DNA from: a virus | Strand: one strand, 5' to 3' | IMG/VR virus record: IMGVR_UViG_3300021085_000111 | Location: 1-34,088 of that record | DNA: 34,088 bases | Shown: positions 3,753 through 32,118 of the stretch, piece after piece | Position numbering within the stretch: the first letter of the stretch is position 1 | How the letters are laid out: the number at the start of each line of letters is the position of its first letter | Translations under genes and position numbers: made by a program | Notes under the pieces: generated by a model | Seen by the model: the letters and a program-made list of their open reading frames with translations, nothing else | Told to the model about the DNA's origin: nothing | The model's database searches: none

Positions 3753-3760
3753 ATTTATGC
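3753..3760 (-). promoter_or_regulatory. Near-consensus late promoter
   Basis: CATAAATA reads on minus, one mismatch from the TATAAATA late core, about 35 nt before the ATG at 3718. It overlaps the end of the Thr/Ser-rich gene. It could drive the small protein, glycosyltransferase and oxygenase unit. Confidence 0.4.
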
Positions 3761-5404
3761 AGTCCTTACATATAGTTTATATGTGACAATGTCAGCGTAT
3801 GAATTATCTTGGATAGTATCACCTGCAAAGGTGTTTGTGAATGTGGGTGTGAAATTAGTAGTAAAGTTTGTAGTACTTGTAATTGATTCAGAGAAACCTT
3901 GATATTGTGTAGTAGATGTTGATGTTCTTGGCGAACCAGTAAAGGTTGTTGTATAATTTCTCGTACTAGGTGTACCAATAAAGTCTCGAGTAAATGTGCT
4001 TGTAAACGTATTTGTAAAATCGTTAGTAGAGGTTCTTGTTGATATTCTCGTACTTGGTGTTCCTGTACTAGTAGTTGTTGCAGTTGTAGCGGAAAACTTA
4101 TATAAGACCATATTACCAATTCCATAAGGTCTAGAATGAAACCCTGTTCGTGCATATGTAACACCTCCACTTACGATAGTTGTAGGACTACCTGACGAAG
4201 TTGCAACAATTGTTCCGTCAATAAAAACATCTGTACGGTCAGTTCCTGTGCCATTATATATTCCACTAGTGAATTGCCAAGCAATATAGGATTCAGTGAT
4301 ATTATTATATGTCGTAGTTGTTCCAGGATTAGTATATGTTCCTGTGAATGTACTTGTGAACGTACTCGTAAAAGTACCTGTGAATGTACCTGTGAAGGTT
4401 CCTGTATAAGAAGAGGTTCTTTGTGAAGAAAAGTCTTCAGTTCTTGTAGTTGAAGTTCTTGAACTGGAGAAGTCTTGGGTGCTTGTAACTGAATTTCTCG
4501 TATTTGTGTATTGAGTTATAAAATTAGCAACCCTTGTCGTAGAAGTTCTTGGTGTGCCTGAAAACGTTCCAGTATAATTGACCTGCGTTATTGAGTTTCT
4601 TTTATCAATTGCTTCGCCTCTTTGAACCCATGTTCCTGTCTCTGAGGGAGTAGAAGTTCTAATTAGATATGAACCGATACCAAGATTAGTGCTTGTGTTT
4701 AATGCAAGATATCTATCAAGGCAATGTTTTGCAGTTGCTTTCATCTTTGCTAAAGACATTAATTGTAACCCTTGGAAATCTCCTGTCTGACCACTTGCTC
4801 TTTGAACACACATAGTAGAAATAGCAGAAGGAGTAGATGGACTTGACGTCATAGTCTTTCTTTGATAAAGATTAAAAACGGTATCGGTATCGTCTGCGTC
4901 TGTAGTAGTGTCGGTCATGACATTTGCAATAGCAACAGCATAATTTGAAGCAGGACTAGGGGCAGAAGAACCTAAGTAAAAAGTTCCAGGATAATTATTT
5001 GAGTATATTATACCTGCAAGAGTTTCTCCGAGTGCTAATTGGTCTGCATCATTAAACTCGCGTATCTCTTGTTGAATACCTGTTTTAGATTGATACAAAG
5101 GATTGCGAAAATTTGTAGGTAAAGAGGGAACAGAACCACTTTGTTGATATATGTTAGTTGTAGTATTTGTCACACTAAGTGTTCCATGGTCACCAACATC
5201 ACCATCATATTCTGAATTGTTTAAAGAACCAATCAGTTCATCAGTATCCCCAGTAGTTCCAAGAGCACCTAAAGATGTTTGACTATATGTTCCGGATGAA
5301 GTTTGTAACTCTAACCCTGCAAGATATGCAATGTAGTTATGTTCAGCAGTCGTTATCTCCTGAACATCATTAGCAGATTTATGTTTTAATGGTAATCGAG
5401 ACAT
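3755..5404 (-). CDS. Thr/Ser-rich repeat virion protein
   Basis: This gene encodes 549 residues from the ATG at 5404, which is preceded by AGGAG with 6-7 nt spacing; the TTG just before it is not needed. The N-terminus MSRLPLKHKSANDVQEIT looks like a virion attachment segment, followed by a mixed globular region to about 260. Two long stretches, about 270-360 and 440-535, are dominated by Thr and Ser with alternating aromatic residues. One consists of tandem TFTG/TFTS units and the other has TSTFT, TPSTR and TTNFT motifs. The alternation suggests extended beta strands with a Thr face. Similar F-T-x repeat proteins exist, to my recollection, in marine T4-like phages as structural proteins. The gene lies two genes upstream of a glycosyltransferase, making it a candidate O-glycosylation target by inference. 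Confidence 0.65.
   Translation of the reverse strand: MSRLPLKHKSANDVQEITTAEHNYIAYLAGLELQTSSGTYSQTSLGALGTTGDTDELIGSLNNSEYDGDVGDHGTLSVTNTTTNIYQQSGSVPSLPTNFRNPLYQSKTGIQQEIREFNDADQLALGETLAGIIYSNNYPGTFYLGSSAPSPASNYAVAIANVMTDTTTDADDTDTVFNLYQRKTMTSSPSTPSAISTMCVQRASGQTGDFQGLQLMSLAKMKATAKHCLDRYLALNTSTNLGIGSYLIRTSTPSETGTWVQRGEAIDKRNSITQVNYTGTFSGTPRTSTTRVANFITQYTNTRNSVTSTQDFSSSRTSTTRTEDFSSQRTSSYTGTFTGTFTGTFTSTFTSTFTGTYTNPGTTTTYNNITESYIAWQFTSGIYNGTGTDRTDVFIDGTIVATSSGSPTTIVSGGVTYARTGFHSRPYGIGNMVLYKFSATTATTTSTGTPSTRISTRTSTNDFTNTFTSTFTRDFIGTPSTRNYTTTFTGSPRTSTSTTQYQGFSESITSTTNFTTNFTPTFTNTFAGDTIQDNSYADIVTYKLYVRTA
4338..4409. repeat. Six tandem 12-base units inside the Thr/Ser-rich gene
   Basis: Six consecutive 12-base units begin at 4338, 4350, 4362, 4374, 4386 and 4398, with the plus-strand pattern GTWCYTGTRAAN or a close variant. 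Each encodes four residues of the TFTG/TFTS repeat, residues about 332-356. Divergence between units is mostly silent or Gly/Ser, pointing to selection on the protein pattern. Confidence 0.8.
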
Positions 5405-5413
5405 CAATTACTC

Positions 5414-19992: not shown

Positions 19993-22900
19993 TTATGGTT
20001 TTAGTCTAGGAATAGGAGTAGTCTTTGGACCCAAATAGTTCCCCATTTCGTCATATAAAGAGTCTTTTTGAGTTAGGTTTGTTGATGTAAATCCTCTTCT
20101 TCTCATAAACGCTCCAAGTGCTCGATTTCCGTGGTTTCCAGGAAGAACCCCTCCGCCTTGTCCACATTGAAGTGGACCTTTATCTAAATGTATGAAATAA
20201 CCATACAAGTGAACCCCCCCATAACCTAAGTCCTCTACTGCCTTTTTTACCAAAGGATATATTACAGAATGTGCCTCTGCAGTGTGATAGTAATTTGTTC
20301 CAAATTTACTGTTTCCAGTCCCGCCATTCTTTGAAGCAAATTTATCAATTTGAATGTCAACTGCTATTCCTCTTAAATGACGACTATATTTTGCTCCTCC
20401 AATTAATGCGTTATAAACTTCGTCACGAAACCCACTACTGACAGTTATATCTGATTCTATAAGGTTGGCAAGTATTGTTAAATCCTTTGGTATCGCCATA
20501 CCTTCATCTTTGAATAGTGCTGGGTCTACCAAGTCGCCCTTTTTTATAACACTTCGTGCATCATCTGTTCCTGTTTGTTCAGCATAAATCACTTTATATT
20601 GTGATTTAGGTGGTCTTTCATTTATTGCTGCTGCTTCATCAGCAACCTCATCAATATCAGGTATTAGATTTTCTACTGGAACATCCTCAGAACTATTTCT
20701 GTTCGTTTCAAAGTTTTCTGCATCGATTCCTGCTTGTCTTTGAATTCGATTATATCTTCTTATCGCCTTAGACGCAGGTGTTAATCTAGAGAACCAATCA
20801 AGTATAACTGCTCCAGGATGTTTTACTGACCCAGGAATTGGACTATTTTCGACTGGAGGTTGTGATAATAAAGGTAAATTCTCTGTATTTTCTTCTGCTA
20901 TTCTTGCGTCTTCTGCTTCTCTTGCTAATCTACTAGAAAAATCTCCTGCTGGAGTTCTTCTTGCTCTAGGTATTTCTGTTTCTTGTCTTGATATTATATC
21001 GAGGAAGGACTCTTCTTCTTGTACTACTTCTCCATTCTCATCAATAGTTGTAATATTTGTAACACTAAGACTTGTATTTGATTCCGCAGAAACAGATTGT
21101 ACAAGGAAATGTCCTGTTACGACACTTTCTTCGTTCGAATCGAATTCAGCACTTTCTAGTTGTGCTGAGTTTACCTTTCCGAATAAAGAAAGTATGTATT
21201 CTGCTACATCAAAATAAGGGTCTAACATGTAATCTTCCTCGTCAGCACCACCTTCATCTGAGAAAAGTGTATGCAACTCGTTATGACCAAAAACATTTCC
21301 TCCAGGAATGTGATTATAAAACACTTTAAGGAATTGCTCTAACGTATCATATTGAGCACGTGTGAATGATGCGCTTGAATTAGAAAACTCAAGACTTTCT
21401 GTACTTGCTCTGTTAATGCCTCCAACCATAACAATACCAATAGAAGTTACATCAAACCCATAATCTGCATGATTTCCCTTCTCTGAAACTGCCCTTCCGC
21501 GTTGAAGTCTTCCATCTCTTCGAATAACATAATGATAACCTATTTCTCCTCCATCACTGTTTGAATCTTCTATCTCTTCTGCACCTATATTCTTATTCGT
21601 AAATGTGTCGGTTGCATGAATGACGACATCTTTAATAGGTCTAGCGCTTCTCATAACACTTAGATAAAATTCTCTTTCTAGTTCTTCTACTGAACCAACG
21701 TATGAGAACTTTGTTTTAATTTTTGGTTCTATTGTATTTCTTGTCGTCTCATTACTCTCTTCAAAAATTTCTTCGAGATTATCATTAAATGCAGAACTAT
21801 TTTCTACTTCAAGAAATTTCTTTCTATATGCATCTTGAACTTCTTTTATCTGTGCTGCAGTTGCACCTCCTGCTTCACCTGCTTCTTTTATCTTATTTAA
21901 TATCTCTTCTTCAGTTAAATTTCCCGATAGTATACCATCTGCTTCATCTAATATATTTTCAAATTTATTTAAAAGGGGAGTTATCCCGCTATCTAGTAGT
22001 GTTATGTTTGCAACTGCTTTTGCTCTCTTAACCCCACCTTCAACTATGTCATTGACTATATTATTAACTGCATCGTCTGGAATATTGAATGTCGTAAGGC
22101 GTTTCACCTCAAGTTTAAGAACATTTAGTGTCTCTTCTGCTAATTCACGAAGAAGACCACCAAGAGTAACTCTTTGTGGTGCACCCTGAACCACTGTTGT
22201 ACGAAATGAAAGTATTTCTGCTGATGCTTCCGCGCTTAATACTCTCCCAGTAAAAGGACTTACAAGTAGGTTATCACCACCTAAATTTTGAATTACTGTT
22301 TGTGGGTTTAAGTCTCGAATTGCTTGACTCGTTTCTGCTGTTGCAGCGGGGTCATAGATTTGTACTGATTGTGATACGTTTAATGCACCCTCACTAATGG
22401 CATTATTAACGCCATCAGACACTTGGTTTGCGACATCTTTCCCTGTTTGTTCAAGACCACCCATCATCTCATCAAAAGTTTCGTTGACACTAGTGGTAAT
22501 ATCTTCAACAACACCATCTACTTGGATAACCATATCCTCATATGCACCTTTTACGCCATCAATAATTCCTTGAATACCTGTTGCTTCTAAAATATGGTTT
22601 CTTATTTCTTTAATCTTACCAATGACGCCACCCATGGGAGTTACTGCAGGAAAAATAGCACCAAGAGAACCTGCTATTCCTACAATTTTAAGAACAGTAC
22701 CAAGAAATCCTGCCGCCGGAGCACCAAGTATAGGAGGTAAAGTATCTAAATGTTTTGCGACATCTTCTCTCGCTTTGTTTGCATTATCGATATGCTTTAG
22801 TTGTGCTGCTTTTATTGCTATAGGTGCACCACTACAAACTACAGTCGCGTCTGGTTTACTGCCACCCCTTACTCCGAAATCTCCTGTGAGTGTAGCGACA

Positions 22901-23262
22901 CCAACTTCACCGTCTGTATTACCACATGTTTTTACCCAACCCCCAAACTCTTTTCCATCATTATTGTTTGCTCCAATTATTGATGAATTGTTCACCCTAT
23001 CTCTATCGATTGCAACTTGTAAATCTAAAGTCGGTTTGGGCATATTTTCTATGTCATATTCTGCAACTGTGACGCCAACATCTACACCTAAACCTTGTAA
23101 TGGTGTCCCTTTAACATCTTCATCAGAAAACGGAATAAATTTAGGTATTGGAACAGGAGGGTTTTCAACCATCTGTGACTTTTCGAGCGCATCCTGAACT
23201 TGTTTTGCCTTGCCTTCTTTTAAAAGTTTTCTAATTGCCGCTTGATTAATTATTGACCTCAT
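19993..23262 (-). CDS. Virion cell-wall hydrolase: amidase_2 plus M15 peptidase
   Basis: This gene encodes 1089 residues. The N-terminal 500 residues form a structural part with a hydrophobic Gly/Ala segment at about 180-215. An N-acetylmuramoyl-L-alanine amidase (amidase_2) domain lies at about 545-695. VIHAT gives H549, GYHYVI gives Y576, GHNEL gives H660 and LDPYFD gives D681, the expected zinc ligands and catalytic positions. After a linker comes an M15-type peptidase domain (about 925-1035). SRHLRGIAVD gives H962 and D969, and YGYFIHLD gives H1025 and D1027. The amidase splits the glycan-peptide bond and M15 enzymes cut peptide stems. The gene lies between the gp5-like and needle genes, so it probably rides on the hub. 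AGGA precedes the ATG. Both active sites look intact. Confidence 0.8.
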   Translation of the reverse strand: MRSIINQAAIRKLLKEGKAKQVQDALEKSQMVENPPVPIPKFIPFSDEDVKGTPLQGLGVDVGVTVAEYDIENMPKPTLDLQVAIDRDRVNNSSIIGANNNDGKEFGGWVKTCGNTDGEVGVATLTGDFGVRGGSKPDATVVCSGAPIAIKAAQLKHIDNANKAREDVAKHLDTLPPILGAPAAGFLGTVLKIVGIAGSLGAIFPAVTPMGGVIGKIKEIRNHILEATGIQGIIDGVKGAYEDMVIQVDGVVEDITTSVNETFDEMMGGLEQTGKDVANQVSDGVNNAISEGALNVSQSVQIYDPAATAETSQAIRDLNPQTVIQNLGGDNLLVSPFTGRVLSAEASAEILSFRTTVVQGAPQRVTLGGLLRELAEETLNVLKLEVKRLTTFNIPDDAVNNIVNDIVEGGVKRAKAVANITLLDSGITPLLNKFENILDEADGILSGNLTEEEILNKIKEAGEAGGATAAQIKEVQDAYRKKFLEVENSSAFNDNLEEIFEESNETTRNTIEPKIKTKFSYVGSVEELEREFYLSVMRSARPIKDVVIHATDTFTNKNIGAEEIEDSNSDGGEIGYHYVIRRDGRLQRGRAVSEKGNHADYGFDVTSIGIVMVGGINRASTESLEFSNSSASFTRAQYDTLEQFLKVFYNHIPGGNVFGHNELHTLFSDEGGADEEDYMLDPYFDVAEYILSLFGKVNSAQLESAEFDSNEESVVTGHFLVQSVSAESNTSLSVTNITTIDENGEVVQEEESFLDIISRQETEIPRARRTPAGDFSSRLAREAEDARIAEENTENLPLLSQPPVENSPIPGSVKHPGAVILDWFSRLTPASKAIRRYNRIQRQAGIDAENFETNRNSSEDVPVENLIPDIDEVADEAAAINERPPKSQYKVIYAEQTGTDDARSVIKKGDLVDPALFKDEGMAIPKDLTILANLIESDITVSSGFRDEVYNALIGGAKYSRHLRGIAVDIQIDKFASKNGGTGNSKFGTNYYHTAEAHSVIYPLVKKAVEDLGYGGVHLYGYFIHLDKGPLQCGQGGGVLPGNHGNRALGAFMRRRGFTSTNLTQKDSLYDEMGNYLGPKTTPIPRLKP

Positions 23263-28648: not shown

Positions 28649-29365
28649 ATGGCACAACGGATAGATGATATTTTATCAGAAATCGGTAAAGGTGGAGGTC
28701 TAGCAGACTCTAATTTATATAGAATTAAATTGCCTACAATAAACGGCGAAAATAGAGGTATGGATATATTGTGTACTGATATATCTTTACCTAGCAGACA
28801 AATTACCACAAGAGAAGTTCAAATGGGGATGGATAACACATTCAGGGTTGCTTATGGCGATTCACATATGGATATTAATCTTTCGTTTATGCTTCTAAAC
28901 GATTTTGGAGCAAGGTATTATTTTGAAGCATGGCAAAGCACAGCATATGATTCTCAAAACAAAACATTAAGGTTTCATAAAAGTTATGTTAAACCTGTAA
29001 CAATCCAAGTTCTAAGAAAGGGTGTTGCGTTTGATATCACAAAGAAGAAATTATTTAATGCTGGTAAAATACCAAGTTCTATAAGGACAAGACTTCCTAG
29101 ATTAGGTCCACTAGATTTTGCTCAAGGGCAGTTCGATTTAAATTTTATCACAAAAGATGATATAATATATGAGATTGAACTTACAGATTGTTTTCCATTT
29201 AGTATGTCAGAGATTACTATGGGGGGAGGAACTGAACAAATATTACTTAAGCAACAAGTACAACTATCGTTTAAGAAGTTTAAAACTGTAACAAAATATG
29301 ACAAAGGAAGAGGGAGTCAGATTGGCGAGGCACTTCTTGGCGGCGTTATGAGAAAAATCTTTTAA
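28649..29365 (+). CDS. Tail-tube-like protein (gp19/gp54 fold)
   Basis: This gene encodes 238 residues. The first half follows the tail-tube protein plan: NLYRIKLPTINGENRGMDIL, CTDISLPSRQITTREVQMGM, then NTFRVAYGDSHMDINLSFML and NDFGARYYFEAWQSTAYD. The later half is beta-rich with IIYEIELTDCFPFSMSEITM and LLKQQVQLSFKKFKTV. It is longer than a tube protein (T4 gp19 has 163 residues) and sits before gp26 and gp29 in a hub gene group, so a tube-initiator (gp54-like) or tube-base role is likely. gp48 is encoded separately on the other strand. AGG lies before the ATG, which starts 4 nt after the upstream stop. Confidence 0.6.
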   Translation: MAQRIDDILSEIGKGGGLADSNLYRIKLPTINGENRGMDILCTDISLPSRQITTREVQMGMDNTFRVAYGDSHMDINLSFMLLNDFGARYYFEAWQSTAYDSQNKTLRFHKSYVKPVTIQVLRKGVAFDITKKKLFNAGKIPSSIRTRLPRLGPLDFAQGQFDLNFITKDDIIYEIELTDCFPFSMSEITMGGGTEQILLKQQVQLSFKKFKTVTKYDKGRGSQIGEALLGGVMRKIF

Positions 29366-29413: not shown

Positions 29414-30124
29414 ATGGCACTACCTAAGTTAAATGAATCAGTTAGATATGAGGTACAAATACCTTCAACCATGAAGGTCGTAACATACAGACCATATCTA
29501 GTGAAAGAAGAAAAAATACTTTTACAAGCGCATGAATCAAATGATGAAAAAACAGCGATGAGAGCAATGCTCGATACTGTAGTTGCTTGTATATATGACA
29601 ATGTCGATATTGATTCACTCACCTCTTTTGATGTTGAGTATCTATTTACAATGATAAGGGCAAAGTCAGTCGGAGAAACTTCTACATTAAATGGAGTTTG
29701 TTCTGCAAAAGATTGTGACGGAAAAACAGATGTTACTATAGAATTAAGCAGTATAGATATTCCGACACCACCTAAAGACATTAGTAATATTGTAGAGATA
29801 AATCCAGAAATATCTATAGAATTAAGATATCCTTCTTACAATGCTTTTATGTCAAACTTTTCTCAGGGTATGTCTGAATCAGAATACGGTTTAAGTCTGA
29901 TCAATCATTGCATATTAGCAATTCTTACACCCAACGAAAGAATAACAGAATGGTCTCAAAAAGAAATGGATGAATTCATTAACTCAATGACATCACTTCA
30001 GTTCGAAAAACTCGGAGATTTTCTTGGAACTATTCCGTCATTAAAACAAAAAGTAGAGTTCACCTGTAAAAAGTGTGGACATGAGAATAAATTAACATTG
30101 GAGGGTCTTCAAGATTTTTTTTAG
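29414..30124 (+). CDS. 26: Baseplate hub assembly protein gp26 (short form)
   Basis: This gene encodes 236 residues (T4 gp26 has 208). MALPKLNESVRYEVQIPSTM, TYRPYLVKEEKILLQAHES, then FDVEYLFTMIRAKSVGETS match the gp26 family. C96 and C101 plus the C218-x-x-C221 pair near the end (EFTCKKCGHE) suggest a zinc ribbon. The protein helps assemble the central hub. GGAG lies 13 nt before the ATG. The frame ends in a run of eight T (30115-30122) that forms a -1 slippery site (T TTT TTT) immediately before TAG. The next frame continues with sequence resembling a tail chaperone extension. Confidence 0.85.
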   Translation: MALPKLNESVRYEVQIPSTMKVVTYRPYLVKEEKILLQAHESNDEKTAMRAMLDTVVACIYDNVDIDSLTSFDVEYLFTMIRAKSVGETSTLNGVCSAKDCDGKTDVTIELSSIDIPTPPKDISNIVEINPEISIELRYPSYNAFMSNFSQGMSESEYGLSLINHCILAILTPNERITEWSQKEMDEFINSMTSLQFEKLGDFLGTIPSLKQKVEFTCKKCGHENKLTLEGLQDFF

Positions 30125-30315
30125 TATGCCTCTCGCATGACAATTTAGTTTCTCATTTTAAAACTAATTTTGCTTTGATGCAGCATTTTAAATATTCGTT
30201 ACATGATATTGAAAATATGCATCCGTGGGAAAGAGAAGTTTATTTAATGTTATTAGAACAACATCTCGAAAAAGAGGCAGAAGAACAGGAAAAAAGAAAT
30301 CAGACGAACGCATAA
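29414..30315 (+). CDS. gp26 frameshift product (gp26 plus 64-residue extension)
   Basis: A -1 slip in the eight-T run joins 236 gp26 residues to 64 residues encoded from 30121 to 30312, ending TAA at 30313-30315 and giving about 300 residues. The extension has no start codon in its first third. It reads VCLSHDNLVSHFKTNFALMQ, then FKYSLHDIENMHPWEREVYL, MLLEQHLEKEAEEQEK. The open frame runs from the slip to a stop 10 nt before the tape-measure gene. The layout mirrors the G/GT chaperone genes that precede the tape measure in lambda-like phages. A small hairpin (ATGC/GCAT around 30126-30138) follows the slip. Whether the ratio of short to long forms matters here is inference. An internal ATG at 30178 could instead give a separate 45-residue protein. 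Confidence 0.7.
30115..30122 (+). other. Slippery run for -1 ribosomal frameshift
   Basis: Eight T bases sit in gp26 codons as TTT TTT TAG. A -1 slip keeps both tRNAs paired with TTT. A five-base-pair hairpin follows after about 3 bases (stem around ATGC at 30126-30129 and GCAT at 30135-30138). The stop lies immediately after the slip in the zero frame. Confidence 0.65.
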
Positions 30316-30324
30316 GGTAAACAC

Positions 30325-32118
30325 ATGGCAATTGATGACACCCACGGAACTGGTAATCCCGTATTTTTAGATACACAATCATTAGGAAACAGTGATTCTG
30401 ATACACTGAGACTAACTCAAATTGCTCTGTCACTCCAAGTTACAAATAAGCAGTTAGAATTGCTCAGTAAGGCAAATCAGGTTCAAGTAATACAGGGTGA
30501 AACTCACACCTTGCAACTCCAAGGTATTTTTTCTTTGGTTAGTAAATATTTCGATGACCTTAATGCGAAAAAGGGAGATGAAGAAGAAGAAAGGAAAGAG
30601 TTACTTGCTTCATTAAAGGGTCTTAAAGAAAATAAAGGAGGTAAAGGTAGTAGTCCTAAAGAAAAAGATGAGACTAAAGACCGAAAAGGTATGTTGGGAT
30701 TTCTTGGTTTAATCTTAAGTAGTTTGATAAAAGCGCCTCTTCTCTTTCTTGCAGGACTTGGTAGTCTTGGTCTAGGTAAAATGATTTTTGGTAAAGGCGG
30801 TTTTGCTACAGTAAAGTTTTCGTTAGGTCTTTTAAGAGGTTCAATTGATAAAATCAATAAGTTCAATTCAAAGATTTTTGGTATAGATAAATTTAAAGAA
30901 GCATCTAAAAAGGCAAAACCAACTAAATCATTTAATAAAATGAACAAACTAGCAAGGGCGGGTGTATCTCAGAAACAAATGGCAAAAATGCCAAACGTGT
31001 ATGGTAAGGAAGTAAGTAATTTAGCGAAACAAATGAGTCCCAAAGAGTTTCAACAGATGAGAAAAGGTAGTGGCACTATGAATGCCATAATGAGGGGTTA
31101 TCAAAAATTCGTAGGAATGTTTGACAAATTTAAAAAACCAGCGGGTCCACCTAAACCTTCAGGCGCAGGAAAGTTATCAAAACTTATTAGTGGATTTAAA
31201 AATTCAATTAAGACAATGCTTGGTCCATTTAGGGTAATTGGTAAAATGTTTGGAGCAATATTTGCACCACTTAGAATTATATTTACTATATTTGAAACAG
31301 TAAAGGGTGCTATACAAGGATTTAATCGATATGGTGAAGACGGAAGTATATTTTCTAAATTAGTAGGTGGTGTGCTAGGAGGTATCGGTGGCGCATTTAA
31401 AGCGATTGTAGGTTATCCACTTGACCTTTTAAGAAGTATCGCTGCATGGATTCTTGGAAAGTTTGGATTTGACAATGCTGCAGCGTATTTGAAAGGATTC
31501 TCCGTTACGGCAATGATAGGAGACTTCTTTAATGCGATTAGTGACAAAATAGTAGGATTTTTCTCAAACATAACTAGTGCCTTTGATCAAGGGATGGGTC
31601 CAGGACTCGCTAACCTTGCTATAAAATTAGCACAGATATCCACAAAGATAATGAGATTTCCTATGGCATTAACAGCAGGTGGTCTTGCTGGTGTCCTTGC
31701 TATAACTCCTGGAGGTAAAAGTCCTAAAGAAGCATTTTTTGATGCTTTCAATGGAGTTATGAATTTTGGTGATTCTGCATTTGAGGGTGCACAGAAACTT
31801 GTTGGTGTAGAGACTCAAACAGAAACCGATGCAAGAATAGCAAAAGAAGTTGCAGAAGCAGAAAAAGCAAGACTTGAGAAAAAAGAAGCAGATAGAGCAA
31901 GAAAATTAAAAGAAGAAGAAGAACGAAAAAAGGCAGCACTAGAAGAACAAGAAAGATTACAAGCAGAGCAAGCAAGAAGACTTGAAGGTGGGACTAATGT
32001 GGATAACAGTCAAACTTCTGTGACTAACAATTCATATTCTGGCGCTCTTGATGGTGCATCGGATTCTGGACCACCTCCTGAATTCGCAATGCTTATGGGT
32101 TTAGCGGGATTAGGATAA
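30325..32118 (+). CDS. 29: Tape measure / hub protein gp29
   Basis: This gene encodes 597 residues, nearly the T4 gp29 size (590). The N-terminus MAIDDTHGTGNPVFLDTQSL leads into helices with LRLTQIALSLQVTNKQLELL. Residues 122-157 (MLGFLGLILSSLIKAPLLFL and on) form a hydrophobic segment typical of tape measures, and more such segments lie at about 330-360 and 380-465. The C-terminal part (about 505-555) is a long charged coiled coil (AKEVAEAEKARLEKKEADRA and on). Tape measure length sets tail length, and hydrophobic parts may enter the host membrane on injection. AAGG lies about 7 nt before the ATG. It follows the frameshift gene at 10 nt and ends at the bidirectional terminator. Confidence 0.8.
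   Translation: MAIDDTHGTGNPVFLDTQSLGNSDSDTLRLTQIALSLQVTNKQLELLSKANQVQVIQGETHTLQLQGIFSLVSKYFDDLNAKKGDEEEERKELLASLKGLKENKGGKGSSPKEKDETKDRKGMLGFLGLILSSLIKAPLLFLAGLGSLGLGKMIFGKGGFATVKFSLGLLRGSIDKINKFNSKIFGIDKFKEASKKAKPTKSFNKMNKLARAGVSQKQMAKMPNVYGKEVSNLAKQMSPKEFQQMRKGSGTMNAIMRGYQKFVGMFDKFKKPAGPPKPSGAGKLSKLISGFKNSIKTMLGPFRVIGKMFGAIFAPLRIIFTIFETVKGAIQGFNRYGEDGSIFSKLVGGVLGGIGGAFKAIVGYPLDLLRSIAAWILGKFGFDNAAAYLKGFSVTAMIGDFFNAISDKIVGFFSNITSAFDQGMGPGLANLAIKLAQISTKIMRFPMALTAGGLAGVLAITPGGKSPKEAFFDAFNGVMNFGDSAFEGAQKLVGVETQTETDARIAKEVAEAEKARLEKKEADRARKLKEEEERKKAALEEQERLQAEQARRLEGGTNVDNSQTSVTNNSYSGALDGASDSGPPPEFAMLMGLAGLG

Follow-up and report, generated by a model that had tools for sequence, protein, structure and literature searches.

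A -1 slip that provides two forms of a tail protein has long been known in phage lambda. In pairs of this G/GT type, the fusion is made at a low and fixed ratio, is required for tail assembly, and binds both the tape measure and the tube protein. The tail assembly chaperones of HK97, gp13 and gp14, belong to the same context, and the chaperone gene sits between the tail tube and tape measure genes. In lambda itself, the short protein G is accompanied by the rarer -1 frameshift fusion GT, and G-T frameshifting is described as widely conserved among long-tailed phages "except T4" (PMC5009743). The gp26 and gp51 proteins of T4 are listed as hub assembly chaperones, gp51 being absent from the final particle, and genetic work cited in the same article puts gp26 in the hub (PMC3004832). 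A position in the hub would not suit a pure chaperone and counts against a chaperone reading of gp26. According to its title, the study of Vladimirov, Gautam and Davidson (2022, Virology 566:9) holds that T4-like chaperone genes suggest a non-frameshifting mechanism, and two papers cite it, one point being that some T4-like phages have a pair of short and fused genes, the other that poly-T slip sites occur in the chaperone genes of T4-like phages (PMC10885494, PMC12846349). To judge from that title and these citations, the tail assembly chaperones of T4-like phages are an already known kind.

We analysed the IMG/VR virus record IMGVR_UViG_3300021085_000111, a fragment of 34,088 nt from a marine relative of T4 that is here called the window. 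Our main conclusion is that its gp26 and a -1 extension of it represent a tail assembly chaperone in a short and a long form, which would work like lambda G and GT, a reading to which we assign a probability of about 0.91. An earlier note on this DNA had proposed such a G/GT analogue in a T4-like phage, and the proposal is supported by a conserved frame, a conserved heptamer, kinship to T4 gp26 and gp51, and an HK97-like predicted fold. The putative pair is like those of lambda and HK97 in having a short and a -1 fused form, a gene position on the tube side, and a similar N-terminal domain fold. Unlike them, gp26 is longer (236 aa), its match to the HK97 structure 2ob9 covers only residues 1-86, and the slippery site is T TTT TTT with a Shine-Dalgarno (SD)-like element upstream.

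The putative short form, gp26 (29414-30124, + strand; 236 aa), is matched by Pfam PF12322 and PHROG 150, and its gene ends with CTT CAA GAT TTT TTT TAG. As the earlier note had stated, the closing TTT TTT TAG falls in a run of eight T (30115-30122, + strand). Within the run lies, in the X XXY YYZ register of the gp26 frame, the slippery heptamer T TTT TTT (30115-30121, + strand), which the TAG stop adjoins (30122-30124, + strand). The -1 frame begins with the codon TTA at 30121 and, again as claimed, remains open for 64 codons up to a TAA at 30313-30315; this extension (30121-30315, + strand), corresponding to the T part, is matched by PHROG 634 and by the C-terminus of PHROG 150, and the gp26-gp51 fusion would have a length of 300 aa. 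The spacing to the next ATG, at 30325, had been given as 10 nt and counts 9 nt. When ATG, GTG and TTG were sought in the -1 frame of the window from the slip onward, none was found before TTG 30175, which is followed by ATG 30178. The SD-like element, GGAGGG (30100-30105, + strand), lies 9 nt before the slip site and is a candidate frameshift stimulator. Directly 5' of gp26 is a gene of the tail tube family (28649-29365, + strand; PHROG 45 tail tube, E 3.7e-23), and ORF597, a frame of 597 aa (30325-32118, + strand), occupies the tape-measure position.

Judged by its profile matches, the extension is a gp51 domain, a name absent from the earlier note. In a PHROG search it matched PHROG 634 (baseplate hub assembly catalyst, gp51) with E 1.5e-24 over profile positions 59-118 of 121; a second match was to the C-terminal end of PHROG 150 (E 1.9e-6). 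With an E cutoff of 10, tblastn with the extension found 585 phage records; among the 40 matches listed, most of the annotated ones fell on genes named gp51/hub assembly catalyst or gp26/baseplate hub. Relatives were gathered as the best 80 of 592 and the best 80 of 570. In 80 of 80 IMG/VR loci among the matches listed, the -1 frame after the gp26 stop is open, three reaching the contig end, and the protein read in it is similar throughout (e.g. LSHDxLVNHYKTNFALMQHHxYSLTELENMxPWEREIY); four of these loci, L001-L004, share 97-100% identity with the window. The enlarged set comprised 179 gp26 loci with the window included, 153 of which are distinct over the last 600 nt of gp26 (L002 equals the window there, and L177 is the same gene as L091), and dereplication at a threshold of 90% nucleotide identity reduced the 179 loci to 80.

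A profile of the extension matched the -1 frame of 177 of the 179 loci at E 1e-3 (153 of the 179 being distinct) and of 176 at 1e-10; it was built from 17 extensions that all lie within the searched set, and the value of the result resides in the remaining loci and in the frame control, where the two alternative frames of these loci gave 358 translations and not one match. The two non-matching loci, L126 and L171, are on contigs that end after 13 and 8 codons. Seven further named records, those of Vibrio phi-Grn1, Caulobacter Cr30, Delftia PhiW-14, S-CRM01, Agrobacterium Atu_ph04, AS-yj and Aeh1 (the last being the same genome as L179), matched the profile at E 3.8e-8 or better.

The first 19 codons of the extension, which the earlier note had described as free of ATG yet plausible as protein, were compared in 693 pairs from 67 dereplicated loci. 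Read in the -1 frame, they had a dN/dS of 0.144 (0.081 in the 15 pairs with the window); read in the gp26 frame the value was 1.27, and in the third frame 3.41. Stops within these codons numbered 0 in the -1 frame, 41 in the gp26 frame beyond its own stop, and 65 in the third frame. The 67 loci are the 80 less three without the heptamer, eight that are distant or carry indels (L085, L089, L090, L091, L093, L178, L179 and L180) and the two truncated ones (L126 and L171). The stretch 30121-30178, whose conservation in the -1 frame had been suggested as a check, is thus strongly conserved as protein-coding sequence (0 of 67 loci with a stop), and the description as protein-like and free of ATG was borne out. 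Our data confirm that the -1 frame after gp26 is strongly conserved protein-coding sequence, beyond what chance would give.

The slip site is conserved as well. T TTT TTN, in the gp26 phase and ending at most one codon before the stop, is present in 176 of 179 loci and in 77 of the 80 dereplicated ones, and all seven further named records (phi-Grn1 to Aeh1) carry it. In the 77, the codon before the heptamer encodes D, S, N, G or A and always ends in T, the next codon is always TTT, and the last codon is TTC in 46, TTT in 28, TTA in 2 and TTG in 1, the last base of the heptamer being any of the four even at the cost of a change from F to L; this base pattern follows in part from the definition of the heptamer, and the informative part is its presence in 77 of 80. 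By the genes' own codon usage, the heptamer has a log10 P of -23.8 for the 77 loci and of -19.8 for 77 or more of 80, kinship being ignored in both figures. The three loci without T TTT TTN, from Vibrio phages K364 and Kuja and Salmonella phage Vi01 (L087, L088 and L092), keep the -1 extension (profile E 2.2e-19, 5.2e-18 and 1.3e-9, respectively) and must employ another slip site or restart. Kuja and Vi01 are recorded as Ackermannviridae, and in K364 a start codon overlaps the gp26 stop.

Pairing with the anti-SD sequence, calculated with an E. coli-type 16S tail, from which that of the host may differ, showed one sharp minimum in the 77 loci, with a mean of -7.4 kcal/mol at -16 to -7 from the heptamer; control positions starting 90 to 41 nt upstream averaged 0.03 (s.d. 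of columns 0.96). An SD core of four or more consensus bases was found in 73 of 77 loci (731 of 2400 control windows) and one of at least five in 34 of the 77 (control, 776 of 7469). At the element, glutamate is encoded by GAG in 45 cases and by GAA in 5, the corresponding counts elsewhere in gp26 being 543 and 1208. The observed mean best energy was -7.49 as opposed to -5.65 +/- 0.16 (lowest -6.17) in 300 synonymous resamplings. Because both the GAG bias and the pairing energy go beyond what the encoded protein and synonymous resampling account for, the SD-like element is not merely a by-product of the protein sequence. A second, weaker anti-SD peak is seen family-wide about 38 nt before the heptamer (mean -3.4 kcal/mol).

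The spacer between the SD-like element and the heptamer is 10 nt in 48 loci and 9 nt in 16, hence 9-10 nt in 64 of 77. The signal is like that of E. coli dnaX in its combination of a heptamer with an upstream internal Shine-Dalgarno sequence, the spacing here being mostly 9-10 nt. The dnaX heptamer, however, consists of A and not T, whereas here it is a T heptamer, and the downstream hairpin is weak in the window and stronger in a cyanophage subgroup. The spacing falls within the range of dnaX-type -1 signals, a distance of 9-14 nt having been given for SD elements that stimulate a -1 shift (PMC5009743). In the passages of the literature consulted, we met no description of an SD-like stimulator in this chaperone family; Vladimirov et al. 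(2022) may describe one.

The earlier note had also pointed to a short hairpin after the slip, and here its claim stands only in part: the hairpin is able to form but is not clearly above shuffled sequence. Hairpin 1 (5 bp; 30125-30139, + strand) is weak in the window (z -1.78 for 30122-30141), as is a possible hairpin 2 (7 bp; 30145-30167, + strand). Taken against shuffles, the window stems had a z of -1.36, and 22 of 200 shuffles folded at least as well, leaving a strong stimulatory hairpin in the window unsupported. In an alignment of the 14 sequences of the window's group, 90% of cells were paired in helix 1 and 67% in helix 2, and one position of helix 1 was changed on both sides. Across 75 loci, the region 7-57 past the heptamer start had a mean z of -2.34, compared with -0.4 at 100-150. 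In 26 cyanophage-type sequences, a stem begins five bases after the heptamer with 93% of cells paired; one cell was changed on both sides, and the covariation score was not above slid controls. A search of 29900-30500 against Rfam was negative up to an E of 1. Downstream structure is a possible aid in some clades only, and the sequence data make the SD-like element the better-supported candidate stimulator when set against the window hairpin.

The search values for gp26 itself were E 9.7e-53 for Pfam T4_baseplate (PF12322) and E 7.7e-54 for PHROG 150. With the predicted model of gp26 (pLDDT 89), Foldseek retrieved no structure at E 0.001 or better, and the HK97 chaperone 2ob9 stood at rank 10 (E 0.49, probability 0.51). 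Upon realignment, 3fgx was top (Z 8.3, 86 aligned, rmsd 3.6, model residues 5-96) and 2ob9 second (Z 7.2, 85 aligned, rmsd 3.4, model residues 1-86), followed by a third row with Z 4.8 and others with 2.6 or less. The model thus gives moderate support to a resemblance between the N-terminal domain of gp26 and the fold of the HK97 tail assembly chaperone, a Z of 7.2 being below what would be decisive alone. A PDB sequence search with the gp26 profile yielded six matches at E up to 1, among them no phage protein and no 2ob9, and NCBIfam at E 0.01 gave no match for four window proteins or T4 gp51. A fold search with the model of a T4-type gp51 produced no chaperone row; its best row, C1QBP (Z 5.2), was taken as unrelated.

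In T4, genes 26 and 51 are separate and lie on opposite strands. T4 gp51 (249 aa) is matched by PF12322 over residues 1-201 (E 3.9e-52) and by PHROG 634 over residues 147-246 (E 1.2e-23), and its residues 206-245 align with the extension profile at 33% identity (hhalign E 1.9e-4, probability 48%). Owing to these matches, T4 gp51 can be described as a gp26-like domain fused to the extension. The T4 proteins therefore have the same PF12322 domain and the same C-terminal extension as the pair in the window, but in T4 the long form comes from a second, divergently oriented gene and gp26 is without the heptamer, whereas here the extension is in the -1 frame. T TTT TTN was absent from the 3' end of the gp26 gene in seven of seven T4-type controls (T4, L181-L183, L185, Thanatos-1 and 50AhydR13PP), which are a few relatives from one clade. 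A search of the 34-kb record for a second gp26-like gene at E 0.001 gave only one match, to the gp26 of the window, the record being only a fragment. In L195, at 1501-2246, a T4-type copy of gp51 has its frame broken in the middle of the gene, away from the chaperone junction, either through a sequencing error or as a real break.

The gene that follows had been called the gp29 tape measure, of which the tape-measure position holds and the gp29 label is almost without homology support. ORF597 had one PHROG match of its own at E 0.01, to a family of unknown function. In an alignment (A5) of 12 chosen sequences from loci with a complete downstream ORF, several tape-measure PHROGs were matched by members, none of them by more than 4 of 12; PHROG 1283, to which T4 gp29 belongs, was matched by one of 12 (E 0.0067). 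With that single member and an hhalign probability of 0.9%, we rejected the identification of ORF597 as T4 gp29. The probability against the putative tape measure of HTVC008M was 17%; in that phage, the annotated putative tape measure is one small ORF further downstream. We infer that ORF597 is probably the tape measure protein, and the order of tail tube, gp26/gp51 and probable tape measure fits the lambda plan. Directly 3' of the gp51 extension, HTVC008M (L085 3403-3735) and Melnitz (L095 2719-3048) encode a protein of about 110 aa with the motif ADTNGDGKVSxEEH. Elsewhere in the window, the - strand at 19993-23262 encodes a 1089-aa protein with Amidase_2 (E 2.2e-11) and Peptidase_M15_3 (E 8.2e-9), both domains of cell-wall hydrolase type, and at 3755-5407, likewise on the - strand, there is a 550-aa ORF with TGTFTGTFTSTF-like repeat stretches that has no Pfam match at E 0.001.

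Twenty annotated named records carry the -1 extension (a Desulfovibrio record without annotation is outside the 20), and none of them shows a joined gp26-gp51 gene. The extension is unannotated in six (S-WAM1, S-MbCM7, Vi01, Atu_ph04, Aeh1 and AS-yj), its gene starts at an internal codon in six others (HTVC008M, C48C1, Kuja, phiAS5, Melnitz and phi-Grn1), and at or near the gp26 stop in the remaining eight (P-SSM2, K364, RL2RES, YB07, ME01, Cr30, PhiW-14 and S-CRM01). The frameshift reading suggests that what is annotated as short "gp51" genes in marine T4-like phages represents truncated parts of the fusion protein. According to a published comparison, gp51 is missing only in Aeromonas phage Aeh1, and gp51 of cyanophages has about 20% of the normal length (PMC3037559). 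In Aeh1 (L203), we find the gp51 extension in the -1 frame within an unannotated gap after gp26, at 1677-1844. The chaperone locus of phage Adele (Vandenendeviridae) likewise has a conserved -1 frame and a poly-T site, and the downstream ORF of the Adele type is also usually annotated as a separate gene; that locus differs in belonging to other phage families and in its GTTTTT motif (PMC12846349).

Such annotations would be correct if gp51 were a separate short protein, translated from a start of its own or through restart once gp26 has terminated, with the SD-like element only holding ribosomes for the restart. From TTG 30175 or ATG 30178 of the window, this protein would have 46 or 45 aa. 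We consider it improbable as the general explanation, even though 6 of 20 records place the gene at an internal start and 8 of 20 on or close to the gp26 stop, and SD sequences near gene ends may assist restart (PMC5009743). Of the 80 dereplicated loci, 24 do have an ATG three codons past the slip, and an ATG overlapping the gp26 stop occurs among the further named records. However, 29 of the 80, the window included, have no ATG, GTG or TTG in the first 13 post-slip codons or in the short open stretch upstream. The codons preceding the internal start are constrained, as the dN/dS of 0.144 (0.081 for the window pairs) attests; the SD-like element keeps its 9-10 nt to the heptamer in 64 of 77 loci, and at this place the window lacks ATG, GTG and TTG; and T TTT TTN itself is kept in 77 of 80. 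Lineages in which a start codon accompanies the gp26 stop may nonetheless produce a free gp51 by restart.

Less probable still is transcriptional slippage, whereby RNA polymerase would insert an extra base into the run of T, so that translation of the altered mRNA would give the fusion. The eight consecutive T of the window, shared by 22 of 77 dereplicated loci with the window counted, would suit such a process, but 49 of the 77 have only six T, which is a short run for polymerase slippage and a proper -1 ribosomal heptamer; conservation of the SD-like element also argues against it. That the break reflects a homopolymer sequencing error or a single gene in decay is scarcely credible. Homopolymers are error-prone and the record is an IMG/VR fragment, yet the same break recurs in 80 of 80 IMG/VR contigs among the matches listed and in 21 named phage records, with TAG, TAA or TGA as the stop and also at runs of six T. 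Programmed -1 frameshifting that yields a gp26-gp51 fusion is, in contrast, strongly supported by these sequence comparisons.

Under programmed frameshifting, most ribosomes would halt at the TAG and release gp26 of 236 aa, whereas a minority would move back by one base at T TTT TTT and produce the 300-aa gp26-gp51 fusion. The GGAGGG located 9 nt upstream would pair with the 16S rRNA tail, probably aiding the slip. The lambda pair, taken as a model, suggests a division of labour in which gp26 would cover the tape measure protein and tail tube subunits would be recruited through the gp51 part. What the sequences and the model show is the -1 coding sequence, the conserved heptamer, the SD-like element, the relation to T4 gp26 and gp51, and the likeness to the HK97 gp13 fold; the occurrence and ratio of the slip, the effect of the stimulator and the binding partners are inferred.

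For T4-like phages outside the T4 clade, we lean slightly towards the view that the three-part -1 signal, composed of the SD-like element, T TTT TTN and, in some clades, a hairpin, is ancestral and includes a conserved stimulator, and that the T4 clade duplicated gp26, fused the extension in frame and lost the heptamer. A protein pair that some clades obtain through a frameshift, and another clade through duplication of a gene, would constitute a testable case. Furthermore, the frameshift would explain both the "missing" gp51 of Aeh1 and the short gp51 of cyanophages.
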